From Gemmatimonadota bacterium (GTDB taxonomy: Bacteria > Gemmatimonadota > Gemmatimonadetes > Longimicrobiales > Gaopeijiaceae), in assembly GCA_021295815.1 (NCBI GenBank), contig JAGWBQ010000005.1, forward strand, positions 1-64,000: DNA of 64,000 bases, given 5' to 3'. The position numbers and the translations under genes were made by a program. The notes beneath the pieces were generated by a model that was not told the DNA's origin, made no database searches, and worked only from the letters and a program-made list of their open reading frames with translations. Position 1 is the first letter of the stretch. Each line of letters starts with the position of its first letter. This document shows, piece after piece, positions 62,681-63,370 of this stretch.

Positions 62681-63370
62681 TTACCGTCCCTTGCTGAGCG
62701 CTCCTCCCCAGGGGTGGATGAAATCCTCCGGCTCCACGCCGAGCCCCTCGGCGACCCGGGTTATGTAGTTGAAGTAGCCGACCACCTGTGTCGCGTCGTG
62801 GATGGCGCGATCGCTGAAACCGAGCCTTCGAAGCCGGTCGAGATCGGCGGCGTCGAGCTCGGAGGGCGTCAGCGTCATCTTCTCGGCGTACTCGCAGAGC
62901 GCGGCGTCGGCGACCGAGAGCCCCGGAGACCTTCCTTCGCGCGCGATCGAGTGCACGAAGTCGTCCAAGGCCTCATCCCTGGTCGCAGCGGCTCCGCCAC
63001 CCGAGCCTGTTCCATCCGCGTCGTCGTCTTCGTCGCCCTCCCGGCCGTGGCGGGTCAGGTCGATCTCGTGGTGATCGGCGGCTTCCTCGATCTCTTCCCG
63101 GAGATCATGCGCGTGCGCCTGAGTTCAGTAGAAGCAGTCCACTGCCCGGGCGGTGACCACCGCGAGCATCTCCCGCCGCCATCTGGAGAGAGGTGAGGAG
63201 CCGAACATCACCGCACGGTAGAAGTCCATCGAGCTTCTCAGCACGGGAGGATTCAGGCTCATGACGCGGACGATGCCCCAGACGCGCCCCGAACGCTGGA
63301 CGGCCTGGTCGAAGAGACGGCGCAGCAGGCCGGTGGCCTCGTCTGGCGGGATCTCCTGGATGTTCGACAT
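62681..63370 (-). CDS. Probable selenoprotein: AhpD/carboxymuconolactone-decarboxylase-type peroxidase with in-frame TGA (Sec82)
   Basis: Read through one TGA (63127-63125), the frame gives 229 residues. Both sides belong to one peroxidase-related AhpD-like protein: MSNIQEIPPDEATGLLRRLF and WRREMLAVVTARAVDCFY before it, TQAHAHDLREEIEEAADHHE and LTPSELDAADLDRLRRLGFS, then GYFNYITRVAEGLGVE after it. The TGA replaces the second Cys of the redox CxxC motif: Cys79-Phe-Tyr-Sec82. The other AhpD relay residues are in register: Glu67 is 12 before Cys79 (as Glu118/Cys130 in M. tuberculosis AhpD) and His86 is 4 after (as Cys133/His137). No other stop occurs. An acidic Gly-rich linker (about residues 113-132) is unusual. 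Expected role: thiol peroxidase. Alternative: nonsense mutation. Confidence 0.82.
63089..63127 (-). promoter_or_regulatory. Candidate bacterial SECIS element after the TGA codon
   Basis: Beginning 18 nt after the TGA, GATCTC (63106-63101) pairs perfectly with GAGATC (63094-63089) around the six-base loop CGGGAA (63100-63095). One U-G pair can extend it, and a lower GGCG/CGCC pairing is possible. Known bacterial SECIS hairpins have a G within the first two loop bases and a loop 16-37 nt from the UGA; both hold here (G second, loop about 24 nt away). SelB should bind it. The hairpin is also coding sequence. Confidence 0.7.

Follow-up and report, generated by a model that had tools for sequence, protein, structure and literature searches.

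The window, a stretch of 64,000 nucleotides from the genome of a Gemmatimonadota bacterium, contains a minus-strand gene for an AhpD-like protein whose frame is interrupted by a TGA codon at an expected catalytic position. The features assigned to the locus are the following:

62681..63370, minus strand: AhpD-like (TIGR01926) putative selenoprotein gene; ATG to TAA, 229 aa with Sec82 counted
63170..63172, minus strand: Glu67 codon, proton-relay glutamate; invariant, with the spacing of M. tuberculosis AhpD Glu118
63134..63136, minus strand: Cys79 codon, opening the CFYU motif; unchanged across 45 aligned sequences
63125..63127, minus strand: in-frame TGA, codon 82, predicted to be read as Sec; aligns with the second Cys of the AhpD CxxC
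63113..63115, minus strand: His86 codon, proton-relay histidine; invariant, with the spacing of M. tuberculosis AhpD His137
63089..63106, minus strand: candidate SECIS hairpin, GATCTC / loop CGGGAA / GAGATC; assigned from model constraints and comparative pairing
62987..63079, minus strand: 31-residue acidic, Gly-rich insert spanning residues 98-128; missing from 14 aligned relatives

The minus-strand frame begins with ATG at 63370, closes with a TAA ending at 62681, and comprises 229 codons, among which the TGA is the sole internal stop. The original prediction, which named no strand, described one continuous frame split by a single TGA, and this is borne out on the minus strand. With the TGA translated as selenocysteine (Sec, U), the protein reads MSNIQEIPP...AVDCFYUTQAHAHDLREEIEE...PWGGALSKGR, with the codon in the context CFYUTQAHAHDLR. 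Table 11 yields instead two fragments of 81 aa (63125..63370) and 95 aa (62681..62968), the truncated pair that standard gene calling was expected to report, and annotation software without selenoprotein rules would split the gene. Two short open reading frames in a window drawn from one assembled genome (2,470,721 bases, 35 contigs, 96% complete) could also point to a nonsense mutation, a pseudogene, or an assembly or base error in a gene that normally encodes Cys. Against such damage, codon usage is coding-like on both sides of the TGA: the window holds 572 in-frame TGAs flanked on each side by 15 or more open codons, codon 82 ranks second of these for coding-like usage of both flanks, and the first-ranked TGA has only 19 codons downstream.

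Conservation of the codon bears on this point. Of 146 relative genomes searched at the protein level, 84 had matches, and the orthologous loci read out from relatives have TGA at codon 82 in 30 of 30, the window's own included. A scan of named public genomes gave 80 loci, mostly with Gemmatimonadota, Chloroflexi, or Caldilineae titles, together with three from Planctomycetota and others; 71 of the 80 carry TGA in the strict motif, and the remaining nine, with a variant motif, carry it as well. Codon 82 is TGA in all 110 family loci examined (30 + 80), mostly Gemmatimonadota and Chloroflexi, and a Cys codon was found at the column in 0/110, though Cys codons were spelled out there in one of the two search patterns, which would have picked them up. 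The two sets partly overlap (L033 and L067, for example, are apparently the same place in one genome), and the independent species number fewer than 110; the distinct 45-base stretches from the TGA onward number 68. Because the TGA is present at codon 82 in every family locus examined, it is not there by chance. Its conservation across Gemmatimonadota, Chloroflexi, and Planctomycetota records refutes an error or pseudogene, and the conserved hairpin and complete Sec machinery described below also stand against that explanation, whose probability is close to nil.

Cysteine is found at column 82 among more distant homologues. A search for such forms had been proposed in the original prediction, and six carry TGC at this position (e.g., CDYCTMHH and CEYCTRHH). 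An in-frame TGA that is conserved in homologues or aligned with Cys is the general mark of a selenoprotein, and the locus has this pattern. Among the 56 relative genomes with a listed N-terminal half, selA was detected in 48 of the 50 with the TGA form and in none of the six with the Cys form. All six Cys forms fall among the eight selA-negative genomes (p ~9e-7, assuming 56 independent genomes), an association that can be taken as supportive only, given that the genomes are not independent and the Cys forms come from a more distant branch. The two TGA-form genomes in which selA was not detected, G002 (830 contigs) and G037 (560 contigs), are fragmented and 76-88% complete.

Two further observations concern copies in relatives. 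A second paralogue, ~43% identical, has TGA at the same column in many of them (e.g., L138, G066:C1:1807683, and G076:C94) and is absent from the source genome. In another relative, the N-terminal half (G024:C1:141590-141814) reads with two TGA and one TAA, possibly a decaying copy.

The source genome contains the four components needed for Sec insertion, selA, selB, selD, and tRNA-Sec, which is the general expectation for a bacterial selenoprotein and the check that had been suggested. The tRNA-Sec scores 70.6 bits against a gathering score of 47, and ARAGORN calls the same molecule tRNA-SeC with anticodon tca (UCA). SelB (309 bits, cut-off 242), SelA (487.5 bits, cut-off 267.9), and SelD (383 bits, cut-off 125) all score above their cut-offs. 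The SelD frame (L018, G000 contig C17, 14881-15801) has one in-frame TGA, GAGUACKLG, and SelD is probably itself a selenoprotein, a second candidate in this genome. An Rfam search of the window gave no match at gathering scores.

The machinery also bears on whether UGA could be recoded to another amino acid, either Cys through a variant tRNA or Trp. tRNA-Cys variants that decode UGA exist, and a functional enzyme would also result if UGA were read as Cys, the residue that distant homologues carry at column 82. Such recoding is nonetheless highly improbable, as the UCA-anticodon tRNA scores as tRNA-Sec, selA, selB, and selD are present, and conservation extends to the hairpin after the TGA. UGA also serves as a stop in this group, where many orthologues have TGA as their final codon. 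General reassignment of UGA was rejected on these grounds.

The RNA downstream of the TGA reads UGA ACUCAGGCGCACGCGCAU GAUCUC CGGGAA GAGAUC. The hairpin starts 18 nt after the UGA, its loop begins 24 nt after, and one extra U-G pair is possible. The published bacterial SECIS model calls for a 3-9 nt loop that has G in its first two positions, in most cases with G or U next, a 4-16 bp stem, a UGA-to-loop spacing of 16-37 nt, and an energy of -7.5 kcal/mol or lower (PMC13188914). The window hairpin conforms to it, with a 6-nt loop, a stem of 6-7 bp, G at loop position 2 and again at position 3, a spacing of 24 nt, and an energy, for the isolated hairpin, of -7.5 kcal/mol, exactly at the model limit. 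Taken alone, it is weak to modest evidence for a SECIS: a model-compliant 6-bp stem follows 125 of 1270 TGA trinucleotides in the window (9.8%) and arises in 3.9% of synonymous resamplings of the window sequence itself, and the 70-nt fold downstream of the TGA does not exceed shuffles in stability (z -0.20).

Comparison across the family makes the case stronger. All six pairs are kept in 63 of the 68 distinct sequences. Across 41 sequences 97.2% of cells are paired, and sliding the partners lowers this to 53% or less. At pair columns 24/37, C-G is replaced by U-A in eight of the 41, and none of 500 shuffles reaches as many cells. The coupled change recurs in Gemmatimonadota, Caldilineae, and Anaerolineales records, which makes a single event unlikely; two-sided change is seen at only one of the six pairs, though in separate lineages. 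A model-compliant hairpin is present in 81 of 83 distinct family sequences, compared with 17.6% (6-bp) after synonymous resampling, and the Leu90 codon is CTC in 65/65, although CTC accounts for 31% of Leu codons in the rest of these genes. The SECIS check requested downstream of the TGA has thus returned a SECIS-like hairpin with compensatory changes. In codon terms, columns 24/37 pair Asp GAC with Val GTC or Asp GAT with Ile ATC, so that a putative SECIS inside coding sequence couples a synonymous Asp position to a Val/Ile residue; this is a clear example of protein sequence held in check by an RNA element. Three Planctomycetota versions (L129, L130, and L131) keep the TGA with an altered 6-bp hairpin (GACTTC...), and in L130 and L131 a shifted GGACU/AGUCC stem can form instead.

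Insertion of Sec at codon 82 is the reading that we favor, at a probability of about 95%. That the organism decodes UGA as Sec, as first proposed, is supported by the machinery, the conservation of the TGA, the Cys homologues, and the hairpin. In the likely sequence of events, SelA and SelD would make Sec-tRNA(Sec), SelB carrying it would bind the downstream hairpin as the ribosome reaches the UGA, and Sec would be inserted at codon 82 in place of termination.

The protein matches Pfam CMD (27 bits, cut-off 23) and belongs to NCBIfam TIGR01926, ‘peroxidase-related enzyme’ (113.1 bits, cut-off 81.8). Membership in NF041238, AhpD_rel_CFYUT, was rejected at 51.2 bits, far below the cut-off of 175. 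Glu67, Cys79, Tyr81, Sec82, and His86 are all invariant in the 45-sequence alignment, and the placement of Glu67, Cys79, TGA82, and His86 at AhpD relay spacings had been correctly called. The relay consists of Glu118, Cys130, His132, Cys133, and His137 in M. tuberculosis AhpD and of Glu36, Cys48, Tyr50, Cys51, and His55 in P. aeruginosa PA0269 (PMC3141380). All five positions (E67, C79, Y81, U82, and H86) are found here at the AhpD spacing, so that Sec would be the second member of the redox pair. Human Sestrin2 carries out its chemistry at the first position and has Leu at the second (PMC4674687). In the window protein, the residue that attacks peroxide may be either Sec82 or Cys79.

A structure model built from the 45-sequence alignment has a pLDDT of 90 and a pTM of 0.87 and adopts the AhpD-like all-helical fold expected of TIGR01926. 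The closest solved sequences are the AhpD-like proteins 6k40, 3c1l, 2pfx, and 2oyo, and Foldseek returned the same four with the model, at TM-scores of 0.84-0.90 normalised by target. The insert at residues 98-128 lies between the active-site helix and the second half and is modeled with low confidence.

Judged by family and active-site layout, peroxidase activity is probably the main function. In the finished helical protein, Glu67, Tyr81, and His86 would prime the redox pair of Cys79-Phe-Tyr-Sec82 in the manner of AhpD. An organic hydroperoxide would most likely be reduced by Sec82 or Cys79, a Se-S bond would form between the two, and a cellular thiol system would regenerate the enzyme; this cycle, with its substrate and reductant, is drawn from the AhpD family. 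A Sec protein with another role, such as a thiol-disulfide adaptor or a Bmp8-like reductive dehalogenase, is rather unlikely but deserves weight. Functions within TIGR01926 are largely unassigned, and the fold search also matches the debrominase Bmp8 (6ohi/6ohj) at TM-scores of 0.78-0.79 by target length. M. tuberculosis AhpD, moreover, combines the role of AhpC adaptor with weak peroxidase activity (PMC3141380). The peroxidase assignment is favored over these roles by the retention of all five proton-relay positions and by 6k40 and 3c1l (E about 1e-9), which are far closer than Bmp8 (1e-4). Very improbable, by comparison, is a lineage-wide obligate-Sec AhpD-like branch that performs some other selenium-dependent reduction, for instance dehalogenation, with the insert adding partner or metal binding.

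The identities of the surrounding genes were read from the sequences. Upstream on the same strand lies a threonine/serine dehydratase-like gene, followed on the other strand by argininosuccinate synthase- and lyase-like genes; no ahpC partner was found beside the gene, its neighbors being this dehydratase-like gene and the arginine-biosynthesis-like pair. ThyX-like and SufE-like genes, also named from sequence, recur in subsets of the relatives' loci, and no conserved antioxidant neighbor was recognised in those neighborhoods.

AhpD-like selenoproteins were described from the Sargasso Sea in 2005, as 27 sequences with CxxU (PMC1088965), and from complete genomes in 2006 (PMC1794560). COG2128 / TIGR01926 with CxxU is listed in reviews of 2022 and 2026 (PMC9312934, PMC13188914), and in a marine survey AhpD-like genes accounted for 9.5% of selenoprotein genes. 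The original prediction treated such proteins as established; the TIGR01926 / COG2128 CxxU form has been catalogued since 2005. What is new here is minor and consists of the lineage, a clade that appears to be strictly Sec, and the 31-residue acidic, Gly-rich insert. The protein adds a probable Sec enzyme in Gemmatimonadota, a group on whose selenoproteins little was found in the literature. The branch appears to use Sec without exception, whereas more distant relatives use Cys, a division that lends itself to studying the advantage of Sec in AhpD-like enzymes.

Among known systems, M. tuberculosis AhpD and PA0269 share the Glu-x11-Cys-x-(His/Tyr)-Cys-x3-His relay at identical spacing; both positions of the pair are Cys in these proteins, which are remote in sequence, and the helices of the M. 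tuberculosis chain are arranged differently. Nearest in both sequence and fold among solved structures are D. radiodurans AhpD (6k40), M. loti mlr4105 (3c1l), and other peroxidase-related proteins, which have Cys at the Sec82 position and lack the insert. NF041238 (‘hypothetical protein 1’, Sargasso Sea) has the CFYUT motif region in common with the window protein, but its model spans 357 positions against 229 aa. A further counterpart is the AhpD-like CxxU family, a likeness drawn from descriptions of that family, whose reported sequences include MCB9421940.1. Like the window protein as interpreted here, that family has Sec at the second CxxC position, a downstream SECIS, and a predicted redox role, and the window protein is set apart from it by its Gemmatimonadota lineage and its 31-residue acidic insert.
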